This document shows, in pieces, positions 1-14,851 of a stretch of 64,000 nucleotides of DNA. The stretch covers positions 1,798,001 to 1,862,000 of the forward strand of contig NZ_JACBZT010000001.1 in the NCBI RefSeq assembly GCF_013408985.1, written 5' to 3'. This DNA comes from Petropleomorpha daqingensis. GTDB taxonomy: Bacteria > Actinomycetota > Actinomycetes > Mycobacteriales > Geodermatophilaceae. The position numbers and the translations under genes were made by a program. The notes under the pieces were generated by a model. It saw only the letters and a list, made by a program, of their open reading frames with translations. It had not been told where the DNA came from and made no database searches. Each line of letters starts with the position of its first letter. The stretch's first letter is position 1.

Positions 1-724
1 CCTCTACGGCCCGCAGCACGAGCTGTTCGACGCGATCACCTCGACGATCGCCGTCGCCCTGGTCACCTGGATGATCTTCTGGATGCGCCGCACCGCGCGC
101 CGCCTGTCCGGCGAGCTGCGCGGCCGCCTCGACGGCGCGATCGGGATGGGCGTCGGCGCCGTCGTCGGCATCGCCTTCCTCGCCATCGTGCGCGAGGGCC
201 TGGAGACGACGCTGCTGTTCTTCGCCTCGGCGCAGGGCGCGACCACCGCCGCCCCGCTGGTCGGCATCGGCGCCGGGCTGCTCACCGCCGTCGGCATCGG
301 CGTGCTGCTGTACGTCGGCGCGATCAAGATCAACCTGTCGAAGTTCTTCACCGTCAGCGGCGTCCTGCTCATCTTCGTCGCCGCCGGGATCTTCAAGTAC
401 GCGATCCACGACTTCCAGGAGGCCGGCGTCCTGCCCGGCCTGAACCACCTCGCCTACGACGCCAGCGGCTGGCTGGACCCGGCCAGCTGGTACGGCGCGG
501 TCGTCTCCGGCCTGTTCAACATCACCCCGCAGCCGTCGGTGCTCGAGTCGATCGCCTACGTCGTCTACCTGGTGCCCGTGCTGACCATCTTCCTGTGGCC
601 GTCCCGGAAGAAGACCGCCACGGCCGCCCCCGCGGCGCCCGCGACCGCGGCCCCCAACGTCGTCGCCGACGTGGCGCCGGCCGTCCCCGCTCCCACGGAG
701 AAGCCCTCGCATGCGCGTGCGTGA
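1..724 (+). CDS. efeU: EfeU-type ferrous iron permease (FTR1 family), 5'-truncated by window
   Basis: The reading frame is open from base 2, so only the C-terminal 240 residues are present and the start lies outside the window. It is an integral membrane iron permease of the EfeU/Ftr1 family. The visible sequence has several hydrophobic segments and the second copy of the family's REGLE iron-binding motif (IVREGLETTLLFF, near base 185-220). The first REGLE motif would be upstream. An Ala/Pro-rich cytoplasmic tail follows the last membrane segment. The next gene, an EfeO-like lipoprotein, starts 14 bp before this stop, and EfeB follows, so this is the first visible gene of an EfeUOB operon. 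EfeUOB systems are known to import Fe(II), typically under acidic or iron-poor conditions. Confidence 0.95.
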   Translation, partial: LYGPQHELFDAITSTIAVALVTWMIFWMRRTARRLSGELRGRLDGAIGMGVGAVVGIAFLAIVREGLETTLLFFASAQGATTAAPLVGIGAGLLTAVGIGVLLYVGAIKINLSKFFTVSGVLLIFVAAGIFKYAIHDFQEAGVLPGLNHLAYDASGWLDPASWYGAVVSGLFNITPQPSVLESIAYVVYLVPVLTIFLWPSRKKTATAAPAAPATAAPNVVADVAPAVPAPTEKPSHARA

Positions 725-1850
725 CCGCCGGATCCTCCTGCTCACCGCCGGCACCGTCGCCGCCCTGAGCACCGCCGCCTGCAGCAGCTCCGGCGGATCA
801 GGAGGGTCGCAGAAGGCGCAGGACACGATCGCCGTCTCCGCGACCGACACCACCTGCGACGTCAAGGCCGACACCCTGAAGGCCGGCACCCACGAGTTCA
901 CGATCACGAACAACGGCTCCAAGGTGACCGAGTTCTACGTCTACGCCGAGGGCGACCGGATCATGGGCGAGGTCGAGAACATCGCCCCGGGCGTCGCCCG
1001 CCGGCTGCTCGTCGAACTGCCGGCCGGCGACTACCAGGCCGCCTGCAAGCCGGGCATGGTCGGCGACGGCATCCGGCACGACCTGACGGTCACCGGCAGG
1101 AGCACCCAGCTCTCGGACGACGAGGAGCTCTCCGCCGCCGTCGACAGCTACGCGCAGTACGTGCAGACGCAGGTGAGCGCGCTGCAGGAGAAGGCCCAGG
1201 AGTTCGCCGACGCGATCAAGGCCGGCGACATCCCGAAGGCCCAGGCGCTCTACCCGGTCGCCCGCTCCTACTACGAGCGCATCGAGCCGGTGGCCGAGAG
1301 CTTCGGCGACCTCGACCCGAAGATCGACGCCCGCGAGAACGACGTCGAGCCCGGGGACACGTGGACCGGCTTCCACGTGCTCGAGCGCGACCTGTGGCAG
1401 ACCGGCGACGTCTCGCAGTCCGGCCCCGTCGCCGACCAGCTGGTCAGCGACATCGACGACCTCGCCACCCGGGCCGAGGACCTCGAGCTCCAGCCGCTGG
1501 ACCTGGCCAACGGAGCGCTCGGCCTGCTCGACGAGATCGCCACCGGGAAGATCACCGGCGAGGAGGACCGCTACTCGCACACGGACCTGTACGACTTCGC
1601 GGCGAACCTCGAGGGGTCGCAGCAGGCGGTGCAGTCGCTGCGGCCGGTCATCGCCGACCGGGACCCGGAGCTGGCGACCGCTCTCGACGAGCAGTTCAAG
1701 GCCACCGCGGCCGAGCTGGAGAAGTACCACACCGGCGACACCTGGACGACGTACACGGACCTCACGCAGGACCAGCTGCGCGCGCTGTCCGACGCGCTCA
1801 ACGCCCTGGCCGCGCAGGTCAGCCAGGTGCCCGCGGTGATCGCGCAGTAG
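711..1850 (+). CDS. efeO: EfeO-type periplasmic/lipoprotein component of iron uptake (cupredoxin + M75 domain)
   Basis: 379 aa. The N-terminus is a lipoprotein signal (LSTAACSS lipobox near residue 23). A cupredoxin-like domain (about residues 40-130) follows, containing conserved Cys residues (TTCDVK and YQAACKPG) and a predicted metal site. The C-terminal half is the helical M75/imelysin-like domain with the HxxE-type motif HVLERDLW (about residues 223-230), which binds metal in EfeO/EfeM. It overlaps efeU by 14 bp and is followed 7 bp later by EfeB, so translation is probably coupled. In the family model EfeO captures iron at the outer face of the membrane and hands it to EfeU. Full length for the two-domain form. 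Confidence 0.95.
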   Translation: MRVRDRRILLLTAGTVAALSTAACSSSGGSGGSQKAQDTIAVSATDTTCDVKADTLKAGTHEFTITNNGSKVTEFYVYAEGDRIMGEVENIAPGVARRLLVELPAGDYQAACKPGMVGDGIRHDLTVTGRSTQLSDDEELSAAVDSYAQYVQTQVSALQEKAQEFADAIKAGDIPKAQALYPVARSYYERIEPVAESFGDLDPKIDARENDVEPGDTWTGFHVLERDLWQTGDVSQSGPVADQLVSDIDDLATRAEDLELQPLDLANGALGLLDEIATGKITGEEDRYSHTDLYDFAANLEGSQQAVQSLRPVIADRDPELATALDEQFKATAAELEKYHTGDTWTTYTDLTQDQLRALSDALNALAAQVSQVPAVIAQ

Positions 1851-1857
1851 GAGCCCC

Positions 1858-3159
1858 ATGAGCGAGCAGGACACGGCGACCGACCGGCCGGCGCGGGGGA
1901 TCTCCCGGCGCCGGCTGTTCGGCCTGGCGGGGATCGGCGCGGCCGGGGTGGCCGTCGGCGGCGTGGCCGGCGGGGCCATCGCCCGGGCCACCGACGACCC
2001 GGCGACGGCGACCGCGTCGGCGGCGTCCGACGCCATCGCCTTCACCGGCGCCCACCAGGCGGGCATCACCACCCCGCAGCAGGACCGGCTGCACTTCGTC
2101 GCCTTCGACGTCATCACCGACGACCGCGACGTCCTGGTGGAGCTCCTGAAGAACTGGACGGCGGCCGCCCGCCGGATGACCGCCGGGCAGGACGCCGGCC
2201 CGACCGGTGCGCTCCCCGACAACGCCTACGTCCCGCCGGACGACACCGGTGAGGCGATCGGCCTGCCCGCCGCCGGGCTCACCCTGACCGTCGGCTTCGG
2301 CCCCACGCTGTTCACCGCCGCCGACGGCCGCGACCGCTTCGGCCTCGCCGACCGCCGGCCGGCGCCGCTGCAGGACCTCCCGCCGTTCCAGGGCGACGAG
2401 CTCGACCCCGCGATCAGCGGCGGTGACCTCTGCGTCCAGGCCTGCGCCAACGACCCGCAGGTGGCGGTGCACGCCGTCCGCAACCTGGCCCGCATCGGCC
2501 AGGGCGTGGTGAGCGTCCGCTGGTCGCAGCTCGGCTTCGGCCGGACGTCGTCGACGTCCACCGGCCAGGCCACCCCGCGCAACCTGTTCGGGATGAAGGA
2601 CGGCACGGACAACCTCAAGGCCGAGAACGCGAAGGCCCTGGACGACTTCGTCTGGGTCGCCGACGGCGACGGCCCCGACTGGCTGACCGGCGGCTCGTAC
2701 GTGGTCACCCGCCGGATCCGGATGGAGATCGAGGCCTGGGACCGCCAGCCGCTGCGCGAGCAGGAGCAGGTGATCGGCCGGACCAAGGGCACCGGCGCGC
2801 CGCTGGGCCAGAAGGCGGAGTTCGACCCGGTCGACTTCAGGAAGCAGCAGGGCGGCCGGTTCGCGATCCCCCAGGACTCGCACGTCTTCCTGGCCCACCC
2901 GACGAACTCCGGGACGGCGATCCTCCGCCGCGGCTACAGCTTCGTCGACGGCTCCGACGGGTTGGGGCGGCTGGACGCCGGGCTGTTCTTCATCGCCTAC
3001 CAGCGCAACCCGGAGACCGGGTTCGTCCAGGTGCAGAAGAAGCTGCGCGGCGACCGGATGAACGAGTACATCCAGCACACCTCGTCGGCCGTGTTCGCCT
3101 GCCCGCCCGGCGTCCGGGACGGCGAGGACTGGTGGGGGCGCGCGCTGTTCACCGCGTGA
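1858..3159 (+). CDS. efeB: EfeB-type Dyp peroxidase (deferrochelatase), Tat-exported
   Basis: 433 aa. The N-terminus carries a twin-arginine signal (GISRRRLFGLAGIGAAG, residues about 18-34), so it is exported folded with haem. The body is a Dyp-type peroxidase: the GxxDG distal motif is present as FGMKDGTDN, and the C-terminal FIAYQRNPETGFVQVQ block is typical. In EfeUOB systems this protein oxidises Fe(II) or releases iron from haem outside the membrane; which of these applies cannot be read from sequence. It starts 7 bp after efeO and ends the operon: the following about 200 bp hold no gene and lead into a kinase gene. Confidence 0.95.
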   Translation: MSEQDTATDRPARGISRRRLFGLAGIGAAGVAVGGVAGGAIARATDDPATATASAASDAIAFTGAHQAGITTPQQDRLHFVAFDVITDDRDVLVELLKNWTAAARRMTAGQDAGPTGALPDNAYVPPDDTGEAIGLPAAGLTLTVGFGPTLFTAADGRDRFGLADRRPAPLQDLPPFQGDELDPAISGGDLCVQACANDPQVAVHAVRNLARIGQGVVSVRWSQLGFGRTSSTSTGQATPRNLFGMKDGTDNLKAENAKALDDFVWVADGDGPDWLTGGSYVVTRRIRMEIEAWDRQPLREQEQVIGRTKGTGAPLGQKAEFDPVDFRKQQGGRFAIPQDSHVFLAHPTNSGTAILRRGYSFVDGSDGLGRLDAGLFFIAYQRNPETGFVQVQKKLRGDRMNEYIQHTSSAVFACPPGVRDGEDWWGRALFTA

Positions 3160-3357: not shown

Positions 3358-4968
3358 GTGGTCGAACCGGGACGTCGGTGCCTCGGTGACCGCTATGAGC
3401 TGCAGCAGCTGATCGCCGCCGGCGGCATGGGCCAGGTGTGGCGGGGGCACGACGTGCTGCTCGGTCGCCCGGTCGCGGTCAAGGTGCTGCGCAGCGAGTA
3501 CACCGGCGATCCGACCTTCCTCGCCCGGTTCCGTGCCGAGGCCCAGCACGCCGCGTCGCTCTCGCACCCCAACATCGCCGCCGTCTACGACTACGGCGAG
3601 ACCATCGCCGAGGACGGCAGCGGCGAGACCCTGGCCTACCTGGTCATGGAGCTGGTCGAGGGCGAGCCGCTGTCGGCGGTGCTGCGCCGCGAGGCGCCCC
3701 TCGACGTCGCCGCCACCCTGTCGGTGCTGCGGCAGACCGGCTACGCGCTGCGCGAGGCGCACCGGGTGGGCATGGTCCACCGCGACGTCAAGCCCGGGAA
3801 CATCCTCGTCCAGGCCGACGGCAGCGTGAAGATCACCGACTTCGGCATCGCGTGGTCGGCCGGCAGCGTGCCGCTCACCCGGACCGGCCAGGTCATCGGC
3901 ACCGCGCAGTACCTCTCGCCCGAGCAGGCCGAGGGCAAGCACGCCACCCCGGCCAGCGACGTCTACGCGCTGGGCCTGGTCGGCTACGAGTGCCTGACCG
4001 GGCACGCCGCCTTCGCGGGCGAGAACCCGGTGACGATCGCGCTCAAGCAGATCCGCGAGCAGCCCGAACCGCTCTCCGCCGAGCTCCCGCCCGGCGTGCG
4101 GACCCTGATCATGGTGGCGCTCGACAAGGACCCCGAGGGCCGCTATCCCGACGGCGGGGCGTTCGTCGACGCCGTGGAGGACACCATCGCCGGCCGCGCG
4201 CCGACGACGGTGGAGGTCGACCGGCCGGCCGCGGCGATCCCGGCCCGGCCCGAGCCCACCGACCCGCCGACGCAGGTGACCGCCGCCGCCCCGGCGGCCG
4301 GGCACTCCATCCGTCCGCCGGCGCGCCGCCGCCGCTCGCTGGCCCTGGTCGCGCTGGCCCTGCTCGTGCTCCTCGCCGGTGGGGGCGCCGCGTTCCTCTA
4401 CCTGCAGCGGGCGGGTGACGACGGCGGCACGGCCGCGGCCGCGGCCACCAAGAAGTTCGAGAACGGCCAGATCGTGCTGGTCGCCGCCGACTACGTGGGC
4501 CACCCGGTGGACGACGTCATCGACCAGCTCAGCGGCCGCGGCCTCCAGGTGCAGCTCAAGCCGGTCGAGGACCCGGCCGTCGCGCCCGGCACCGTCACCG
4601 ACGTCAGCCCGGCCGGGACGCCGCTGAAGTCCGGCGACACCGTCGTCGTCACCTACGTGCGCGCGCCGGGCGACACCTCGGTGCCGCGCGGGCACTCCCA
4701 GACCGCCGCCGTGGTCGGCACCCAGGCGACCTCCGAGCCGACGGCCACCGACTCCTCGTCGGTGCCCGCGCAGCAGACCGGGTCGAACGGCCCCACGGCC
4801 GGTGGCTCGACGCCGTCCGACGGGTCGTCGTCGTCCGACAGCACGAGCACCTCGACCTCCACCGAGACGACGACGAGCACGGAGACCAGCACCTCCACCT
4901 CCACCTCGACGTCCACCAGCACGAGCACCTCGCCGTCGACAGACACCGACGCCGGCGTCCAGGGCTGA
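3358..4968 (+). CDS. PASTA-type transmembrane Ser/Thr protein kinase (first of a tandem pair)
   Basis: 536 aa from GTG with gaggag 9-10 bases upstream. The Hanks-type kinase domain covers about residues 10-270: glycine loop (IAAGGMGQVW), VAVKVL lysine, catalytic HRDVKPGNIL (about 140) and DFG (ITDFGIAWS). A Pro/Arg linker leads to one membrane segment (about 326-347), then a single extracellular PASTA repeat (about 372-435) and a long Ser/Thr low-complexity tail of TSTSTST type. PASTA kinases sense peptidoglycan fragments and phosphorylate growth and division proteins; having only one PASTA repeat is fewer than in PknB. The next gene is a close paralogue, evidently a tandem duplication. Confidence 0.93.
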   Translation: MVEPGRRCLGDRYELQQLIAAGGMGQVWRGHDVLLGRPVAVKVLRSEYTGDPTFLARFRAEAQHAASLSHPNIAAVYDYGETIAEDGSGETLAYLVMELVEGEPLSAVLRREAPLDVAATLSVLRQTGYALREAHRVGMVHRDVKPGNILVQADGSVKITDFGIAWSAGSVPLTRTGQVIGTAQYLSPEQAEGKHATPASDVYALGLVGYECLTGHAAFAGENPVTIALKQIREQPEPLSAELPPGVRTLIMVALDKDPEGRYPDGGAFVDAVEDTIAGRAPTTVEVDRPAAAIPARPEPTDPPTQVTAAAPAAGHSIRPPARRRRSLALVALALLVLLAGGGAAFLYLQRAGDDGGTAAAAATKKFENGQIVLVAADYVGHPVDDVIDQLSGRGLQVQLKPVEDPAVAPGTVTDVSPAGTPLKSGDTVVVTYVRAPGDTSVPRGHSQTAAVVGTQATSEPTATDSSSVPAQQTGSNGPTAGGSTPSDGSSSSDSTSTSTSTETTTSTETSTSTSTSTSTSTSTSPSTDTDAGVQG

Positions 4969-5055
4969 CCTCCGGCTGTCGCCCGATCGTGGCGGCAGGT
5001 GTGCCGAGCGCCCCCGAGGGGCATGGGGAGCCGGGCGTCGTCAGGGGAGGTTGTG

Positions 5056-6522
5056 TTGGTCGCACCGGGCGGGCCGCCGATCGGCGGCCGCTACGAGCTC
5101 GGCCCGTTGCTGGCCACCGGCGGCATGGGGCAGGTGTGGAGCGGGCGCGACCTGCTGCTCGGCCGGCCGGTCGCGATCAAGGTGCAGCGCAGCGAGTACA
5201 CCGGCGACCCGACCTTCCTGGCGCGCTTCCGCGCCGAGGCCCAGCACGCGGCGCTGCTGGCGCACCGCAACATCGCCGCCGTCTTCGACTACGGCGAGGT
5301 CTCGGCCGAGGAGTGCGGCGAGCACCTCGCCTACCTCGTGATGGAACTGGTGGACGGCGAGCCGCTGTCCGCCGTCCTGGCCCGCGAGCAGCGCCTGGAC
5401 GTCGAGCGCACCCTCGACGTCCTGCACCAGATCGCGGCCGGGCTCGCCGCCGCGCACGCCGCGGGCGTGGTGCACCGCGACGTGAAGCCCGGCAACGTGC
5501 TGGTCGGCCGCGACGGCGTGCTGCGCGTGACCGACTTCGGCGTCGCCTGGTCGGCCTCCGACGTCCCGCTCACCCAGACCGGCCAGGTCGTCGGCACCGC
5601 CCAGTACCTCTCGCCGGAGCAGGCCGAGGGCGGCCGCGGGGGCCCGGCCAGCGACGTGTACGCGCTCGGCCTGATCGGCTACGAGTGCCTGGCCGGGCGC
5701 CGCGCCTACGACGGCGGGACGCCGGTGCAGATCGCGCTGCGGCGGCTCCAGGAGAATCCCGCGCCGCTGCCGCCCGGCCTCCCCGAGGACGTGCGGACGC
5801 TGATCGGCCGGGCGCTGTGCCGGGAGCCCGCCGAGCGCTTCCCCGACGGCGCGGCGTTCCGCGACGCGGTCGACGACGTCCGTGCCGGGCGGTCCCTGCC
5901 CCCGCTCGAGCCGACCACCCTGCCCCTGCCGCCGCGGCGTTCCGTGCGCCGGGTGCTCACCCCGGTCGCCGCGCTGGCCATCGGCGCCGTCCTGGGTGTC
6001 GGCGCGCTGCAGCTCGTCGCCGTCCCGACGACCACGCCTCCCGTCGCCGCGCAGGCGGCGCCGGCGACGGGGGTGACGCTGCGGTCGGCGGACTACGTGG
6101 GCCGTCCGGTCGACGAGGTCGAGGCCGCGCTGGTCGACCTGGGCCTGCAGGTGGTGCGCAGCGCGCAGACCACCGGGTCCGCGGCGCCGGGGACGGTGCT
6201 CGGCGTCGGCCCGGTCGGCCTGGTGTCGCCCGGCCAGCTGATCACCGTCACCTACGCGGTCGCCCCGGACCCGGCCCCGTCCTCGGAGGCGCCGTCGTCC
6301 TCGTCCGTCACGACGGTCGAGGCCGCGGTGGGGAGCGCGGCGGCCGCCCCCGCCCCGGCTCCCGCCTCTGCCGGCGGCGTGGTCGAGGCGGTCACCGGCC
6401 CCGGCAACCATCCCGCGGGGCCGGGCGGCGGGCCCGCGAACGGGCCCGGCAAGCCCGACGACAAGCCCAAACCGCCCAAACCGCCGGAGCCGGCGGGGCC
6501 CGGCAAGGGGAAGGGCAAGTAG
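5056..6522 (+). CDS. PASTA-type transmembrane Ser/Thr protein kinase (second of a tandem pair)
   Basis: 488 aa if started at TTG 5056. I chose this start because aggggagg ends 5 bases before it and the product (MVAPGG..GGRYEL) then lines up residue for residue with the first kinase (MVEPGR..GDRYEL). GTG 5053 is one codon earlier but too close to the Shine-Dalgarno sequence. The kinase motifs are intact: TGGMGQVW, VAIKVQ, HRDVKPGNVL (about 138) and VTDFGVAWS. A membrane segment lies near 298-318 and one PASTA repeat follows. The extracellular tail differs from its twin: Ala/Ser-rich, then a Lys/Pro stretch ending KPPEPAGPGKGKGK. The basic tail could bind anionic wall polymers; that is inference. 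Confidence 0.9.
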   Translation: MVAPGGPPIGGRYELGPLLATGGMGQVWSGRDLLLGRPVAIKVQRSEYTGDPTFLARFRAEAQHAALLAHRNIAAVFDYGEVSAEECGEHLAYLVMELVDGEPLSAVLAREQRLDVERTLDVLHQIAAGLAAAHAAGVVHRDVKPGNVLVGRDGVLRVTDFGVAWSASDVPLTQTGQVVGTAQYLSPEQAEGGRGGPASDVYALGLIGYECLAGRRAYDGGTPVQIALRRLQENPAPLPPGLPEDVRTLIGRALCREPAERFPDGAAFRDAVDDVRAGRSLPPLEPTTLPLPPRRSVRRVLTPVAALAIGAVLGVGALQLVAVPTTTPPVAAQAAPATGVTLRSADYVGRPVDEVEAALVDLGLQVVRSAQTTGSAAPGTVLGVGPVGLVSPGQLITVTYAVAPDPAPSSEAPSSSSVTTVEAAVGSAAAAPAPAPASAGGVVEAVTGPGNHPAGPGGGPANGPGKPDDKPKPPKPPEPAGPGKGKGK

Positions 6523-7210: not shown

Positions 7211-8494
7211 GTGGCAATCCGCGCCGGCGTCGTCGTCACCGGGACCGAGGTCCTCACCGGCCGGGTAGCCGACCGCAACGGGCCGTGGTTGGCCGAGAAG
7301 CTGCGCGAGCTCGGGGTCGACATCGGCCACGTCGTCGTCGTGGGCGACCGGCCCGACGACCTGGAGAGCGCCCTCGACTTCCTGGCCGGCACCGGCGTGG
7401 CGCTGGTGATCACCTCCGGCGGGCTCGGGCCGACCGCCGACGACCTCACCGAGCAGATCGTCGGCGACTGGCAGGGCCGCCCGTCGGCCGTCGACCCGGC
7501 GCTGGAGCAGCGGATCGGCACGATCGTCGAGCGGCTGATGGCGCGCCGCGGCTGGCGTGCCGATCCCGAGGCCACTGCGGCGGGGGTGCGCAAGCAGGCG
7601 CTGGTCCCGGCGGGTGCGACGGTGCTGGAGCCGGTGGGGACGGCGCCGGGGCTCGTCGTCCCGCCGGCCGACGGGCGCACCGGGCCGACCGTGCTCGTGC
7701 TGCCCGGCCCGCCGGCGGAGCTGCAGGGGATGTGGGCGGCCGCCGTGGCCACCGAGCCGGTCCAGCGGGCGCTGGCCGGCCGGGCGGAGCTGCGCCAGGA
7801 GACGCTGCGGCTGTGGGGGACGCTGGAATCCCAGCTCGCCGCAACCCTCCGCGACCACGACGCGGAGCTCGGCGGGCTGGAGATCACCACGTGCCTGCGG
7901 GACGGCGAGCTGGAGATCGTCACCCGCTACGCCCCTCCTGAGCAGGCCGCCTACGAGCGCCTGACCGCGGCCGTCGAGGCCGACTTCGGCGACACCCTGT
8001 TCTCCCGCGGCCCCACGCTCGACGACCTGGTCGCGGACGCCTTCGCCGACCGCGGGCTGACCGTGGCGACGGCCGAGTCGTGCACCGGTGGCCTGCTCGC
8101 CGCGCGGCTCACCGAGCGTCCCGGCTCGTCGGCGTGGGTGCTCGGCGGCGTCACCGCCTACGCGAACTCGGCCAAGGAGGAGCTGCTCGACGTGCCGGCC
8201 GAGGTGCTGGCCGCGCACGGCGCGGTGAGCCCCGAGGTCGCCGCCGCCCTGGCCGAGGGCGCGCGGGCGCGGTTCGGCGCGGACGTCGGCGTGGGGATCA
8301 CCGGCATCGCCGGGCCCGACGGCGGGACGGCGGACAAGCCGGTCGGCACCGTGCACCTGTGCGTGGCCGGTCCGGACGGCCGGCAGGCGAAGTCGCTGCG
8401 GCTGCCGGGGTCGCGGTCCGCGGTCCGGGCACGGTCGGTCGTCATGGCGATGCACCTGCTGCGGGTGCTGCTGCTCGGCGGGCCGCCGGCCTAG
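7211..8494 (+). CDS. cinA: CinA-like protein: MoCF-fold domain + nicotinamide-nucleotide amidase
   Basis: 427 aa, GTG start. The N-terminal part (about 1-170) is the MoaB/MogA-like domain, with TGTEVLTG and the [12 protein letters not shown] loop. The C-terminal part (about 265-425) is the PncC-type amidase, with [15 protein letters not shown] and [11 protein letters not shown]. CinA proteins deamidate nicotinamide mononucleotide in the pyridine nucleotide salvage cycle, and some also hydrolyse ADP-ribose; the competence role of the name is lineage-specific. The gene has no ribosome binding site but an ideally spaced -10 hexamer, so it is probably leaderless. It stands alone, divergent from the small membrane protein. 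Confidence 0.93.
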
Positions 8495-8617: not shown

Positions 8618-8623
8618 TACCGT
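8618..8623 (+). promoter_or_regulatory. Putative -10 hexamer TACCGT for leaderless repeat-protein gene
   Basis: TACCGT is followed by 6 nt and ATG 8630, with no Shine-Dalgarno sequence. The paralogue at 11655 has the closely similar TGCCTACCGAGG at the same distance, so promoter and start context were duplicated with the gene. Confidence 0.55.
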
Positions 8624-8629
8624 CGGGCC

Positions 8630-9535
8630 ATGCCGGAGCCCGGAGCAGCGCTCGACCAGCGGGAACGCTCCCGCCGGTCGTGGGTGCGCCGCGGGCTCCT
8701 GGTGCTCGGCTTCCTGGCGGGTGGGTTCTTCCTGCTGCTGCTGACGAGCGGGACCGCTCAGGCCAGTGAGCACGCCCCGGACGGGAATCCGTTGGGCCGC
8801 GCGGTGTCGGCCGTCGCGGACACCGCAGCGCCGGCCGTGCACGCGGTCACGGCGCCGGTCCACGAGGCCGCCACCCCCGTCCTGGCCCCGGTGGCCGAGA
8901 CGGCCGCGCCCGTGGTGGCGCCGGTCGCTCCCGCCTTCGCTCCGGTGACCGAGGCCGTGGCTCCGGTGACCGAGGCCGTGGCTCCGGTGACGAAGGCCGT
9001 GGCTCCGGTGACCGAGGCCGTGGCTCCGGTGACGAAGGCCGTGGCTCCGGTGGCCGAGGCCGTGGCTCCGGTGACGGAGGCCGTGGCTCCGGTGACGGAG
9101 GCCGTGGCTCCGGTGACGGAGGCCGTGGCTCCGGTGGCCGAGGCCGTGGCTCCGGTGGCGGTCCCGATCGCCGACGCGATCGTCCCGGCCCCGGTGCCGG
9201 CTCTGGTCGCCGCCGAGCAGCCCGCTCCGAGCGCGCCGGTGGCCGCCCCGGCCCCGAGCGCCGTCGGAACCACCCCGGCCGCCGTCGGAACCACCCCGGA
9301 GGCCGCCGTGACCGAGAGCCCCGCCGTCCCCACCCCCGCGCCGGTCGCCCCGGTCGCCCCGGCCACGCCGGCCGCGCCGTGCTCGTCCTCCGCCGGCGGC
9401 CAGCCGACGTCCTCCCCGCTCGCCACCGTCGACGCGCTGCTGGAGCAGCCGTTGCTGGCGGGCGTCGCCTCGAGCGCGCCGATCGCGACGCTCGAGCACG
9501 GCTCGTTCCCCGAGCCGTCGTTCTCGCCCGACTGA
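8630..9535 (+). CDS. Secreted heptad-repeat protein (PVTEAVA type), novel
   Basis: 301 aa from ATG 8630; the frame is open farther up, but this start matches the paralogue at 11655. N-terminus: basic stretch, hydrophobic core (about 20-38) and a signal-peptidase-like site TAQA/S. The centre is repetitive with Pro-Val every seven residues; ten consecutive near-identical APV(T/A)(E/K)AV units lie at 8939-9148. The C-terminal third is Ala/Pro-rich, with one Cys, and ends EPSFSPD. The regular proline argues against an ordinary coiled coil. It has no sortase motif or second membrane segment, so release or non-covalent wall association is likely. I recognise no family. A cell-surface or matrix role is inference from the signal peptide and repeat content. 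Confidence 0.75.
   Translation: MPEPGAALDQRERSRRSWVRRGLLVLGFLAGGFFLLLLTSGTAQASEHAPDGNPLGRAVSAVADTAAPAVHAVTAPVHEAATPVLAPVAETAAPVVAPVAPAFAPVTEAVAPVTEAVAPVTKAVAPVTEAVAPVTKAVAPVAEAVAPVTEAVAPVTEAVAPVTEAVAPVAEAVAPVAVPIADAIVPAPVPALVAAEQPAPSAPVAAPAPSAVGTTPAAVGTTPEAAVTESPAVPTPAPVAPVAPATPAAPCSSSAGGQPTSSPLATVDALLEQPLLAGVASSAPIATLEHGSFPEPSFSPD
8939..9148 (+). repeat. Ten 21-bp tandem repeats coding APVTEAV
   Basis: Ten head-to-tail 21-bp units of the form gctccggtgaccgaggccgtg, with differences only at the T/A and E/K codons. The nucleotide identity between units is very high, which suggests recent slippage or unequal recombination and likely length variation between strains. Confidence 0.85.
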
Positions 9536-9543
9536 GGGGTCCC

Positions 9544-9569
9544 GAGCGGACGAGCCGTCGTCCGCGCTC
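9544..9569 (+). terminator. Hairpin after first repeat-protein gene
   Basis: GAGCGGACGA - gccg - TCGTCCGCGCTC pairs over 10 bp with a 2-nt bulge, 8 bases after the stop codon. It has no T-tract, as is usual in high-GC actinobacteria. Confidence 0.5.
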
Positions 9570-9627
9570 CCGCTCCACGACCGCGCCGAACCGCGCGGCC
9601 ACCTACTCGGGACAAGGACCCATCCAG

Positions 9628-11523
9628 ATGAACCGCACCATCCGCAACGGCCTCGCCGTGGCGACGATGTCCGGCGGCCTGTGGCTGCTCGGCCACGCCG
9701 TCGCCAGCGCCAGCGAGGTCCCGCAGAACCCCGTGTCGGACTCGATCAGCTCGCTGGCCTCGGCGGGCAGCGGCGACGCCACCCAGGACGTCGGATCGGA
9801 CCAGTCGGCCACCAGCGGCGACAGCACCACCACCGGTGGCGACGCGAACTCCAGCAGCACCAACACCGCCGGGGACGCGAGCCAGTCCAACACCGGCACG
9901 ACCGGGGACAACAACTCGACCACGGTCTGCGTGGCCCTGGAGTGCCGGACCGGCGACTCCACGACGGGGTCGAACTCCCAGTCCAACGGCTCGGCACAGG
10001 GCGGAGACGTCGAGGGCAGCGGCAACGCCACCTCCGGCGACACCTCCGGCGGGGACTCCACCGCCACCTCTTCCGGAAACGAGGCCGACCCGTGGAACGG
10101 TTCCGGCGCGGCGGGCTCCGGCTCGTCGTCCGACCGGAACGGCTCTGCGTCCAGTGAGGCCTCGTCCGGCGATCCCGACCAGAGCACGTCGTCGGACCAG
10201 TCGGCCACCAGTGGCGACAGCACCACCACCGGCGGCGACGCCGACTCCAGCAGCTCGAACACCGCTGGGGACGCCGACCAGTCGAACACCGGCACCACCG
10301 GCGACAACGGCTCCATGACGTACTGCGTGGCCCTGGAGTGCCGGACCGGGGACTCCTCGACCGGCTCCAACCACCAGTGGAACGGCTCTGCGGAGGGTGG
10401 CGACGTCGAGCACAGCGGCAACGCCTCCTCCGGGGACACCTGGGGCGGGGACTCCACCGCCACCTCGGCCGACAACGAGGCCGACCCGTGGAACGGCTCG
10501 GGTTGGGCTTGGTCGACGGCGCAGGAGAACTCCCGCGGCGACTGGTGGGGCCGCAACAGCGGCTGGTCCGAGAGCAGCGCGAACTCCGGTGACGCCACGC
10601 AGGACGCTACGTCCGACCAGTCGGCGACCAGCGGCGACAGCACCACCACCGGCGGGGACGCGACGTCCAGCAGCACCAACACCGCTGGCGACGCCGACCA
10701 GTCGAACACCGGCACGACGGGGAACAACGACTCCTCGACCCGGGCCGGCAACGGCGCCGGTGCGCAGGAGAAGGGCAACGGCTGGGAGCACGGTAGGGGC
10801 GGCGACGTCTGGACCGGGGACTCCTCGACCGGGTCGAACCACCAGTGGAACGGCTCCGCGGAGGGTGGCGACGTCGAGCACAGCGGCAACGCCACCTCCG
10901 GCGACACCTGGGGCGGGGACTCCACCGCCACCTCTGCCGGCAACGAGGCCAACCCCGTCAACGGCTCCGGCCCGGCCGGCGCCTGGTCCTCCTCCCGCAG
11001 CGGTCACCACTCCAGCCACGGCCACGGCCACGGCGACTGGGAGGGCCAGCCGTGGATGAGCCGCGGCTCGGACGACCGTTCGGGCAGCTCGGCGGACAGC
11101 ACCGCCGGCTCGGGCGACGCCGACCAGACGGCGACGTCGGACCAGTCGGCCACCAGCGGCGACAGCACCACGACCGGCGGCGACGCCGATTCGTCGAGCA
11201 CCAACACCGCCGGTGACGCCGACCAGTCCAACACCGGCACGACCGGCGACAACAACTCCTCCACCCGGGCCGGCAACGGACATGACCAGGAGAAGTCCTA
11301 CGGCCGGCACGGTGCGGACGGCGACGTCCGGACCGGCGACAGCACCACCGGCTCCAACCGCCAGTCCAACGGCTGGGCCGAGGGTGGCGACGTCGAGCAC
11401 AGCGGCAACGCCACCTCCGGCGACACCTGGGGCGGCGACTCCACCGCCACCTCTGCTGGCAACGAGGCCGACCCGGTGAACGGATCGGGTCCGGCGTTCG
11501 CCGGCGCGCACGCGTCGCACTGA
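9628..11523 (+). CDS. Secreted Ser/Thr/Gly/Asp/Asn-rich repeat protein, novel
   Basis: 631 aa from ATG 9628 with aagga upstream. The signal peptide (about 1-30) ends AVASASE. The mature protein consists of four large repeats. Each has one block of type GDSTTTGGDADSSSTNTAGD, continuing ADQSNTGTTGDN, and one of type GDSTTGSNxQSNG ... GGDVEHSGNATSGD ... GGDSTATSAGNEADP. Within these, GD recurs about every 11 residues (GDADSSSTNTA, GDADQSNTGTT, GDVEHSGNATS), which suggests a stacked beta or solenoid fold. Variable linkers rich in Trp/His separate the repeats. Composition is strongly acidic with few hydrophobics. There is no sortase motif. It lies between two paralogous repeat proteins with its own terminator. 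An extracellular matrix, adhesin or spore/hyphal-coat role is inference; I recognise no family. Confidence 0.75.
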   Translation: MNRTIRNGLAVATMSGGLWLLGHAVASASEVPQNPVSDSISSLASAGSGDATQDVGSDQSATSGDSTTTGGDANSSSTNTAGDASQSNTGTTGDNNSTTVCVALECRTGDSTTGSNSQSNGSAQGGDVEGSGNATSGDTSGGDSTATSSGNEADPWNGSGAAGSGSSSDRNGSASSEASSGDPDQSTSSDQSATSGDSTTTGGDADSSSSNTAGDADQSNTGTTGDNGSMTYCVALECRTGDSSTGSNHQWNGSAEGGDVEHSGNASSGDTWGGDSTATSADNEADPWNGSGWAWSTAQENSRGDWWGRNSGWSESSANSGDATQDATSDQSATSGDSTTTGGDATSSSTNTAGDADQSNTGTTGNNDSSTRAGNGAGAQEKGNGWEHGRGGDVWTGDSSTGSNHQWNGSAEGGDVEHSGNATSGDTWGGDSTATSAGNEANPVNGSGPAGAWSSSRSGHHSSHGHGHGDWEGQPWMSRGSDDRSGSSADSTAGSGDADQTATSDQSATSGDSTTTGGDADSSSTNTAGDADQSNTGTTGDNNSSTRAGNGHDQEKSYGRHGADGDVRTGDSTTGSNRQSNGWAEGGDVEHSGNATSGDTWGGDSTATSAGNEADPVNGSGPAFAGAHASH

Positions 11524-11538
11524 CGCACCCGCACCCAG

Positions 11539-11572
11539 ACCCGCCCGGGCGTCCTCGGACGTCCGGGCGGGT
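11539..11572 (+). terminator. Strong hairpin after Ser/Thr/Asp repeat-protein gene
   Basis: ACCCGCCCGG pairs perfectly with CCGGGCGGGT, and the inner GCGTCC/GGACGT extends it to about 16 bp (one G-T pair). It lies 16 bases after the stop. Confidence 0.75.
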
Positions 11573-11642
11573 ATGCGTGCGCCCGGCGGAAAATCGACCG
11601 GCAGAATCCGGTTCTCCGCGTTTCCCGAGGCGCTGTTCTGCC

Positions 11643-11648
11643 TACCGA
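11643..11648 (+). promoter_or_regulatory. Putative -10 hexamer TACCGA for second heptad-repeat gene
   Basis: TACCGA, 6 nt, ATG 11655. The context TGCCTACCG..GG..CATGCC is shared with the paralogue at 8630, so the two genes probably share their promoter class and are co-expressed. Confidence 0.45.
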
Positions 11649-11654
11649 GGTGGC

Positions 11655-12926
11655 ATGCCCCAGCCCGCGGGTGCCGGAGATCAGCGGGGATTCCACCGCT
11701 GGTTCGTCCTGCGCCGCGCGCTGCTCCTCCTGCTGTTCACGGCGGGTGGGCTGCTCGTCCTGGCCGCGATCGCGAGCGCCGCAAGGGCATCGGCCGACCC
11801 GGTGCCGGCCGTGCCCGGGCACGTGGTCGAGGCGGCGACCGACGTCGCGGCCGGTCACGCTGCTGCCGTGCTGCCTGCTCAGGCCGCGGCGCCCGCGCAC
11901 GCCGCGAACGCGGCCGCCCCACCGGTGGCTCAGGACGTCGCCGCGCCCGTCGCCCAGGTCACCGACGTGTCACCCGCGGTCACCGAAGCAGCGGCGGTCG
12001 CCGCTCCTGTCGCTGCCGCGCCCGTGCAGACCGCGGTCCAGGACGTCGTGGCTCCGGTGGTGCAGCCGGTGGCGCAGGCGGTGGCCCAGCCGGTGGCGCA
12101 GGCGGTGGTCCAGCCGGTGGCGCAGGCCGTGGTGGAGCCGGTGGCGCAGGCCGTGGTGGAGCCGGTGGCGCAGGCCGTCGCGCCGGTGGCGCAGGCCGTG
12201 GTGGAGCCGGTGGCGCAGGCCGTGGTCCAGCCGGTGGCGCAGGCCGTGGTCCAGCCGGTGGCTCAGGCCGTCGCGCCGGTGGCGGACGCCGTGGTCACGC
12301 CCGTGGCGCAGGCCGTGGTCCAGCCGGTGGCTCAGGTGGTCGCGCCGGTCACGCAGGCCGTGGTCCAGCCGGTGACGCAGGCCGTCGCGCCCGTCGTGGA
12401 CGCCGTGGTCACCCCGATCGCCGAACCCGTCGCCGAAGCCCTGCAGCCGATCACCGCCCCGGTAACGGCTGCCGTCGCACCCGTGGTCGACCCGGTGCAG
12501 ACCGCCGTCACCGCACCGCGGCTCGATCCGGTCGCCCTCCCCGCCCAGGCCGCGGCACCCACGACGAGCGCGCCGATCCCGGCGGCCGCTCCGCCGGTCA
12601 CCGGCGCCCTGGCCGCACCGCAGCCGTCGATCACCCCCCGGGCGTCCGTCTCCGGCCCGACCAGCACCGGCCCGACCAGCACCGTCGCGCCCGCCGCCGC
12701 CGTGCCTCCGGCGCCCGGCCCGCTTCCGCTGCCTGGCCCGGCGGACGACGTCCCGGGCTCGATGCCGCCACCTTCGTCCGCAGGAAGCGGCTCCGGTACG
12801 CCGCTGCTGCCCGCCACGCTGACCGCCACCGCGCGGTCCTCCTCCGCCGTGCCCGCCGTCTCGACGGCACCGGCACGTGCGCTCTCGGCCGGCTCGGAGA
12901 CCGAGCCCGCCGTCTCGCCCGACTGA
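11655..12926 (+). CDS. Secreted octad/heptad-repeat protein (PVAQAVVQ type), paralogue of the gene at 8630
   Basis: 423 aa from ATG 11655. It shares with the 8630 product a start MP(E/Q)P, an Arg-flanked hydrophobic signal (RRALLLLLFTAGGLLVL, cleavage near ARASA), a central Pro-Val repeat and a C-terminus ending EPAVSPD. Its repeat is longer and less regular: PVAQAVVQ and PVAQAVVE octads mixed with PVAQAVA heptads, about 15 in a row at 12058-12420. The Glu/Lys charge pattern of the other paralogue is replaced by Gln. An Ala/Pro/Ser/Thr-rich C-terminal third follows. Same inferred secretion, same lack of a wall-sorting motif. The two repeat proteins flanking the acidic Ser/Thr protein suggest a functional trio; this is inference from order and shared promoter context. 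Confidence 0.75.
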   Translation: MPQPAGAGDQRGFHRWFVLRRALLLLLFTAGGLLVLAAIASAARASADPVPAVPGHVVEAATDVAAGHAAAVLPAQAAAPAHAANAAAPPVAQDVAAPVAQVTDVSPAVTEAAAVAAPVAAAPVQTAVQDVVAPVVQPVAQAVAQPVAQAVVQPVAQAVVEPVAQAVVEPVAQAVAPVAQAVVEPVAQAVVQPVAQAVVQPVAQAVAPVADAVVTPVAQAVVQPVAQVVAPVTQAVVQPVTQAVAPVVDAVVTPIAEPVAEALQPITAPVTAAVAPVVDPVQTAVTAPRLDPVALPAQAAAPTTSAPIPAAAPPVTGALAAPQPSITPRASVSGPTSTGPTSTVAPAAAVPPAPGPLPLPGPADDVPGSMPPPSSAGSGSGTPLLPATLTATARSSSAVPAVSTAPARALSAGSETEPAVSPD

Positions 12927-12997
12927 GGTCCCTCCCCCGGCCGTGCCCTGCCCTGCGCCCGAACGGCGCCGGGCGGCGACGGCCGCATCCCCGCACT

Positions 12998-13025
12998 CCC
13001 ACCGCGCGCAGCCGCGCGCGGTGGG
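12998..13025 (+). terminator. Perfect 11-bp GC hairpin
   Basis: CCCACCGCGCG (12998-13008) pairs with CGCGCGGTGGG (13015-13025), loop cagccg. It sits 70 bp after the repeat-protein stop. The 305-bp gap 12927-13231 holds this terminator, GC-rich filler and, at its right end, the promoter/operator of the acyl-CoA dehydrogenase gene. Confidence 0.7.
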
Positions 13026-13210
13026 CCCCGGGGGAGGGGCCGCACCCGTTCGCGCCCTGATCACCCCCGGGACCGGCGGCGGCTGCCCGACCTGTCACGG
13101 GGCGGGTCGGGCAGCCCCCGCCGGGGCGGCCGCTCCGTGTCCGCCCGGGTTTCACGGGGCCGGACGGGCACGAGCGGCGGCCACATCGCACAGCACCCGC
13201 CGACCGGGCT

Positions 13211-13231: not shown

Positions 13232-14851
13232 ATGAGCGCGACCCACGAGGTCACCAACCAGGTCCCGCCGCTGGTCGGCCACGACCCCATCGCCGGCGAC
13301 GCCGTGCTGGCCGAGGCCTGCCGCCGGCACGCGGACGACGCGGCGCTCGGCTCGCTCTCCGAGCTGGGCCGGCTGGCCGGCAGCGAGCAGGCCCAGGAGT
13401 GGGGCCGGCTGGCGAACGAGAACCCGCCGAGGCTGCGCACCCACGACCGCTACGGCCACCGCGTCGACGAGGTCGAGTTCCACCCCGCCTGGCACGAGCT
13501 CATGCGGACCGCGGTCGAGCACGGCCTGGCCGGCGCGCCGTGGGCCGATGGCGGCCCGTCGGCCCACGTGCGCCGCGCGGTCGGCTATCTCGGCTGGACC
13601 CAGGTCGAGATGGGGCACGGCTGCCCGGTCACCATGACCTACGCCGTCGTCCCGGCCCTGCGCCGCGACGCCGACCTCGCCGCCCGCTACGAGCCCGGGC
13701 TCACCGCGCGCGCCTACCGCTTCGGACTGACCGACCCCGCGGAAAAGCCCGGCCTGATCGCCGGCATGGGCATGACCGAGAAGCAGGGCGGCTCCGACGT
13801 CCGGGCCAACACGACGCGCGCGGTCCGGCAGCCCGACGGCAGCTATGCGCTCACCGGCCACAAGTGGTTCACCTCGGCGCCGATGAGCGACCTGTTCCTG
13901 GTCCTCGCCCAGCTCGACGAGGGGGTCTCCTGCTTCCTCGTCCCGCGGGTGCTGCCCGACGGCAGCCGCAACGTGTTCCACGTGCAACGTCTCAAGGACA
14001 AGCTGGGCGACAGGTCCAACGCCTCCAGCGAGGTGGAGTTCGACGGGACGACGGGCTGGCTGGTCGGCGAGCCCGGCCGGGGCGTGCCGACGATCATCGA
14101 GATGGTCAACATGACCCGGCTCGACTGCGTGCTGGGGTCGGCCTCCACGGTGCGGGCCGCGCTGACCCAGGCGATCCACCACGCCGACCACCGGCGTGCG
14201 TTCGGCGCGCGGCTGGTCGACCAGCCCCTCATGCAGAACGTGCTGGCCGACCTCGCGATCGAGAGCGAGGCGGCCACCGCGCTGGCGATCCGGCTCGCGG
14301 CAGCGGTCGACGGCGGCGAGCAGGCCTTCCTGCGCCTGGCCGGCGCCGCGGCCAAGTTCTGGGTCTGCAAGCGCACCCCCTCCGTCGTCGCCGAGGCCCT
14401 GGAGGTGCTCGGCGGCAACGGCTACGTCGAGGAGTCCGGCCTGCCGCGGCTGTACCGGCAGGCGCCGCTCAACTCGATCTGGGAGGGCTCGGGCAACGTG
14501 ATCGCCCTCGACGTCCTCCGGGCGATGGGACGGCAGTCGGACTCCCTCGCCGCCGTCGTCGCGGAGATCGACCTGGCCCGCGGCGCCGATGCCCGCTTCG
14601 ACGACGCGGTCAAGCGGCTCTCGGCGGAGCTCGGCGACCCCGACGACCTCCCGCTGCGGGCCCGCCGGGTGGCCGGCCTGCTGGCGCTGTGCCTGCAGGG
14701 GTCGCTGCTGCTGCGGTTCGCGCCGTCCGCCGTCGCGGATGCGTTCTGCGCCACACGCCTGGGCGGCGACTGGGGCGCTGTCCTGGGCACTCTCCCCGCG
14801 GGGACGCCGACACGCCAGATCGTCGACAGGGGACGGATCACACCGTTGTGA
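13232..14851 (+). CDS. AidB-like acyl-CoA dehydrogenase family protein
   Basis: 539 aa, at the 540-residue length of AidB-type proteins rather than the 380-400 of classic acyl-CoA dehydrogenases. The FAD/acyl-CoA dehydrogenase signatures are present: MGMTEKQGGSDVRANTT, KWFTSAPMSDLFLVLAQ, the RAFG(A/K) block (HRRAFGARLVDQPLM), and the C-terminal LGGNGYVEESGLPRLYR plus SIWEGSGNV. AidB in E. coli binds DNA and is part of the alkylation response; many actinobacterial relatives are simply annotated acyl-CoA dehydrogenases, so substrate is unknown. It is a single gene with a putative TetR-type operator over its -10. Confidence 0.88.
   Translation: MSATHEVTNQVPPLVGHDPIAGDAVLAEACRRHADDAALGSLSELGRLAGSEQAQEWGRLANENPPRLRTHDRYGHRVDEVEFHPAWHELMRTAVEHGLAGAPWADGGPSAHVRRAVGYLGWTQVEMGHGCPVTMTYAVVPALRRDADLAARYEPGLTARAYRFGLTDPAEKPGLIAGMGMTEKQGGSDVRANTTRAVRQPDGSYALTGHKWFTSAPMSDLFLVLAQLDEGVSCFLVPRVLPDGSRNVFHVQRLKDKLGDRSNASSEVEFDGTTGWLVGEPGRGVPTIIEMVNMTRLDCVLGSASTVRAALTQAIHHADHRRAFGARLVDQPLMQNVLADLAIESEAATALAIRLAAAVDGGEQAFLRLAGAAAKFWVCKRTPSVVAEALEVLGGNGYVEESGLPRLYRQAPLNSIWEGSGNVIALDVLRAMGRQSDSLAAVVAEIDLARGADARFDDAVKRLSAELGDPDDLPLRARRVAGLLALCLQGSLLLRFAPSAVADAFCATRLGGDWGAVLGTLPAGTPTRQIVDRGRITPL

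Follow-up and report, generated by a model that had tools for sequence, protein, structure and literature searches.

The stretch analysed here, referred to as the window, comprises 64,000 nucleotides (bases 1,798,001 to 1,862,000) of the complete 5.38 Mb genome of Petropleomorpha daqingensis. Three genes, hereinafter A, B, and C, lie in it on one strand and are bounded by cinA and by an acyl-CoA dehydrogenase gene. The features of the locus, in window positions, are the following:

7211..8494, forward strand: cinA, left flank and synteny anchor
8618..8623, forward strand: TACCGT, candidate -10 element of a leaderless gene A transcript, 6 nt from the ATG, no Shine-Dalgarno sequence
8630..9535, forward strand: gene A, 301 aa, hydrophobic VAPVTEA heptad repeats, member of the A-like family described below
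9614..9618, forward strand: AAGGA, Shine-Dalgarno sequence of gene B, read from the sequence
9628..11523, forward strand: gene B, 631 aa, apparently secreted acidic repeat protein with the family signal peptide MNRTIRNGLAVATMSGG...
11530..11581, forward strand: strong, terminator-like hairpin 3' of B (z -5.2), no U-tract
11643..11648, forward strand: TACCGA, candidate -10 element of a leaderless gene C transcript, as far from the ATG as its counterpart in A
11655..12926, forward strand: gene C, 423 aa, second A-type protein, PVAQAVV(Q/E) repeats
12927..13050, forward strand: strong hairpins 3' of C (z -5.7), no U-tract
13232..14851, forward strand: acyl-CoA dehydrogenase gene, bounding the synteny interval on the right

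Upstream of this interval, genes named by eye as EfeO-like and Dyp-peroxidase-like (EfeB) occupy positions 711-3159, and two PASTA-type Ser/Thr kinase genes, likewise named by eye, come next (3358-6522).

Each of the three products starts with what reads, by eye, as a Sec signal peptide. Gene A contains a 21-bp unit repeated in 10.4 copies (8939-9157) and gene C a 24-bp unit in 14.1 copies (12057-12385). Both mature proteins are hydrophobic (GRAVY +0.60 for A and +0.61 for C) and both proteins end in SPD; A possesses a single Cys, located near the C-terminus, and the mature part of C has none. The B protein comprises four long units, which begin at residues 58, 190, 330, and 505, is rich in Ser, Gly, Thr, and Asp, and has a pI of about 4.05, a net charge of -69, and a GRAVY of -1.11, a composition compatible with disorder. 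AlphaFold gave very low confidence for it (mean pLDDT 36, thin alignment, not converged); for a Blastococcus B protein (pLDDT 39, not converged) a threefold repeated strand pattern was returned at low confidence. An earlier note on this DNA had described three apparently secreted open reading frames with regular repeats, a C-terminal SPD common to A and C, and no recognised family, and all of this agrees with the measured repeats and with the searches in Pfam and NCBIfam, where none of the three proteins had a match above the cut-off. Searches of PDB sequences with A and B returned nothing usable, and weak matches in Pfam, NCBIfam, PHROGs, and PDB, to phage tape-measure proteins, DUF948, and the tail of RNA polymerase II, were discarded as reflecting low complexity only. 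A DNA search of the genome with gene A also disclosed a further Pro/Val-repeat gene (L004:1450-2451, minus strand; G000:C1:2774355-2775356), which was set aside since it lacks the PD terminus.

The TGCCTACCG stretch reported in the same note ahead of ATGCC is indeed shared by A and C. TACCGT in A and TACCGA in C stand at position -12, with no Shine-Dalgarno sequence, one base nearer the ATG than in the relatives, where 20 of the 21 orthologous A-like genes have TANNNT at -13/-14 and likewise lack a Shine-Dalgarno sequence. It is known that TANNNT is the -10 motif of Mycobacterium tuberculosis, in which leaderless transcripts are frequent (PMC3898074). If this motif may be carried over to Geodermatophilaceae, the region preceding A and C likely represents a leaderless promoter layout, as at the orthologous gene of the relatives. 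Gene B has its own AAGGA, and a Shine-Dalgarno sequence of this type is usual at the B-like genes of the relatives; A and B are probably co-transcribed. The idea that each gene is followed by its own hairpin terminator did not hold, since folding of the A-B gap does not exceed what chance would give (z -1.45) and only the hairpins 3' of B and of C are strong, both devoid of U-tracts.

A search of 40 relatives with B alone yielded nothing at E 1e-6, and a first scan of named genomes with B found no relatives either, probably because the biased repeat composition depresses the scores. Relatives were reached through cinA synteny, by comparing the DNA downstream of cinA from 20 relatives with the window genes. 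The fetched cinA genes are 71-80% identical to that of the window in 18 of these genomes and 66-69% in the other two, and in 13 of the 20 the acyl-CoA dehydrogenase gene (79-87% identical) lies downstream of cinA. In two Blastococcus genomes, the gap between the two flanking genes holds an A-like gene, a B-like gene, and then a class E sortase gene (255.3 and 249.8 bits, cut-off 160), all on the strand opposite to cinA, so that the window pair is reversed relative to them. The A-like protein encoded there is secreted, Ser/Thr-rich, and ends in RPD; the B-like protein has a signal peptide near that of B and a C-terminal LAYTG followed by a hydrophobic stretch and RRR.

A family-wide search with the Blastococcus repeat protein disclosed more loci, and 20 regions were read. 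The module occurs in Blastococcus, in Klenkia, and in one Modestobacter; in the latter two genera, the pair adjoins a glyA-like gene and no sortase gene is adjacent. Among 399 genomes sampled from the order, B-like matches of full length are confined to Geodermatophilaceae, the few matches outside the family being limited to the sorting-signal end. The gene upstream of the B-like gene ends in PD in 21 of 21 readable cases (the PD and leaderless counts leave out locus L096, which is a contig edge), and nearly all the B-like relatives carry LAxTG, with LASTG in three and LAYTR in one. The LAYTR protein belongs to a Blastococcus (L105:5117-6439) and might represent an early step in the loss of a sorting signal. 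Other variations can be seen around the pair. Some Blastococcus harbor two or three B-like genes in tandem (L087:4301-8210; L088:4399-7828; L097:5042-9171), and the third copy of L097, as called, has no visible LAxTG at its end. A CopG-like and Doc-like toxin-antitoxin pair, named by eye, adjoins A-B in Klenkia, Modestobacter, and several Blastococcus (L039:5377-5969; L104:7827-8395; L127:4770-5332; L129:4783-5342), at two different chromosomal sites.

Gene C has no counterpart in any of the relative loci read. The locus had been proposed to be a three-gene system, whose co-occurrence in related genomes was to be the check; examined by synteny, co-occurrence applies to the A-B pair and not to C, which is specific to the window among these loci. 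A conserved trio including C was thus dropped, since no relative examined has it. Window A shows all the traits of the upstream member of the pair, being co-directional with B and directly upstream of it, apparently secreted, ending in SPD, and preceded by the putative leaderless layout.

In order to evaluate homology, HMMs were built from the relatives, leaving the window sequences out, and scores were compared with those of shuffled sequences. The B signal peptide conforms to the family pattern M[NRK]R[ST]xRN[GT]LAxAxM, and the first 30 residues of B score 69.5 bits, against a maximum of 11.0 in 920 scored shuffles. At the N-terminus, A reaches 17.5 bits (shuffles -0.1 +/- 1.6) and C 13.8 bits (shuffles 1.9 +/- 2.2, 3 of 999 reaching the score); at the C-terminus, the values are 15.5 bits for A (5.8 +/- 2.3, 1 of 1000) and 18.8 bits for C (9.0 +/- 2.4, 0 of 1000), so that by these scores both termini of A and of C are similar to those of the A-like family. 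Between the ends, the bodies of A and C consist of Pro/Val repeats, whereas those of the relatives' A-like proteins are Thr/Ser/Ala-rich. The mature part of B scores 117.8 bits with the HMM of the L087 type (shuffles 69.4 +/- 6.5, 0 of 300 reaching it), 134.8 bits with that of a second sub-family (99.6 +/- 11.8, 5 of 300), and 179.9 bits with that of a third (148.6 +/- 13.9, 14 of 300). Judging from these values, B in its signal peptide and A in its N-terminus are firmly related to the relatives' proteins; the homology is strong for the former, good for the latter, and moderate for the repeats and the C-termini, the repeat bodies of the window pair appearing only partly related to those of the relatives. 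Since with two sub-families the scores of B's mature part do not stand out clearly from the shuffles, the repeats of B may have been largely replaced.

This modest similarity, together with the orientation opposite to that of Blastococcus, might suggest that the window genes encode independent, non-homologous secreted low-complexity proteins that settled in the gap between cinA and the dehydrogenase gene. In eight relatives this gap measures about 230-505 bp and holds nothing recognised, and in three others it contains DUF222/HNH endonuclease-like genes, named by eye (L040:7617-9542; L043:7411-8829; L045:1728-3221), so that the site seems insertion-prone. An independent origin would nevertheless leave the near match of the B signal peptide to that of the family to coincidence, as well as the recurrence of the A-then-B order, the PD terminus, and the leaderless layout, and we regard it as rather improbable. 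The reading that we favor, and hold with fair confidence, is that A and B are the diverged window copy of a two-gene surface module of Geodermatophilaceae, unnamed and recognised here, and that in the window lineage this copy has lost its wall anchor.

As for the anchor, B ends in GPAFAGAHASH, without a hydrophobic segment, a basic tail, or a sorting pentapeptide, and no sorting signal is present on A or C. No LAxTG remnant is visible by eye in the DNA between B and C, the LAxTG profile gave no signal on the window genome, and no class E sortase was found in this complete genome, the one genome of its genus that was examined. The class E cut-off is passed by 102 of the 115 genomes of the family, and, of the genomes chosen for the test, all seven that have a class E sortase match the LAxTG profile and none of the five that lack it (the window genome being among the five), a comparison in which three of the seven positives were previously known carriers and whose statistics ignore kinship. 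The earlier note had remarked that no sortase accompanies the genes; this is true of the window locus, although it appears to be a derived state, given that the same site in Blastococcus has both a LAYTG-bearing B and a class E sortase gene. No paper on sortases of Geodermatophilaceae turned up in the literature collection searched.

In the cinA tree, the window lineage groups with Blastococcus and others, apart from Klenkia (92/94, the fork being not fully supported). LAxTG forms of B thus stand on both sides of the tree, which makes the loss of the anchor in the window lineage the simplest history; that this lineage once had a wall-anchored B and then lost the anchor is well supported, loss as against original absence being what we infer from it. 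A simple inversion of the Blastococcus arrangement puts the sortase gene exactly at the place of C, and C may have replaced it.

The window genome harbors two sortases whose best match is class F, one above and one below the class F cut-off, and these might anchor B after all, as might another C-terminal device, the module then working as in the relatives. The bare end of B and the lack of any remnant in the DNA before C speak against this, as does the fact that class F sortases differ in class from the LAxTG-reading one, and we consider this possibility improbable. One of the class F-type genes lies 3' of a gene whose secreted product bears a YAPTGG-like motif and a hydrophobic tail at its C-terminus (L108:459-1953) and is likely the substrate of this sortase.

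Loss of the sortase and of the anchor might also have left the module without a function, as a decaying remnant that drifts and whose repeats, prone to slippage, have grown. Three long frames free of stops and frameshifts and the presence of a second A-type gene are hardly what decay would leave, nor are the signal peptides, -10 elements, and PD termini, all apparently intact, and this explanation seems improbable too.

On the reading of a diverged module that lost its anchor, the following scheme can be proposed. In the relatives, a leaderless mRNA would begin at A, whose product would be exported by Sec; B would have a Shine-Dalgarno sequence to itself for translation, and after export a class E sortase would use its LAxTG to attach it to peptidoglycan. 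The window lineage would carry the segment inverted, would have lost the sorting signal along with every class E sortase, and would have C at the sortase position. B would then probably be a surface or matrix protein, acidic and largely disordered, that is either free or held by non-covalent contacts, and A and C would be its hydrophobic Pro/Val-repeat partners; export of the three proteins and the partnership of A and B are presumed in this scheme. By composition and by analogy, the module may thus form a surface or matrix layer that is acidic and mostly disordered, anchored to the wall in the relatives and free or held by assembly here, and the earlier view of a secreted, surface-associated system of no named family is supported. 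It is conceivable, though we consider it unlikely, that, once the class E sortase and the signal were lost, the duplicated A/C partner came to hold the B layer at the cell surface, assembly replacing covalent anchoring.

These data define a surface module, unnamed and restricted to one lineage, in actinobacteria that live in soil and on stone. Nature offers here a clean comparison of one protein pair, at a single chromosomal site, in a form anchored by sortase and in a form without an anchor. Should this be confirmed, it would show the fate of surface proteins once their anchoring enzyme has been lost.

The closest known arrangement is the pair of A-like and LAYTG-bearing B-like genes of Blastococcus, Klenkia, and Modestobacter, which has in common with the window the gene order, the B signal peptide, the PD terminus, the leaderless layout, the repeats, and the acidity, and, in Blastococcus, also the chromosomal site. 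It differs in the LAxTG of B and, in Blastococcus, in the adjacent class E sortase gene, both missing from the window, which for its part has the opposite orientation, Pro/Val-repeat A and C proteins, and the extra gene C. Outside the family, class E sortases of Streptomyces read LAXTG and anchor chaplins (PMC5148588); the long chaplins ChpA-C with SrtE1/SrtE2 follow the same LAXTG/class E logic as the window's relatives, whereas the window has neither a sorting signal nor a chaplin domain, no match to the latter being found in B with Pfam or NCBIfam. Surface proteins shaping colony growth and sporangia in Actinoplanes depend on a class E sortase for their anchoring (PMC13251363, PMC13293333). 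Among these, SspA of the sporulating actinomycete A. missouriensis is, by description, a secreted surface protein devoid of known domains, as B appears to be, and is predicted to be wholly disordered (PMC13293333), a state that the composition of B would fit; it is sortase-anchored, unlike window B. CwpA and CwpB of the same species are encoded by two adjacent surface-protein genes, apparently in one operon, depend on a class E sortase, and contain disordered regions (PMC13251363); both are anchored and hydrophobic, whereas in the window B is strongly hydrophilic and only A and C are hydrophobic.
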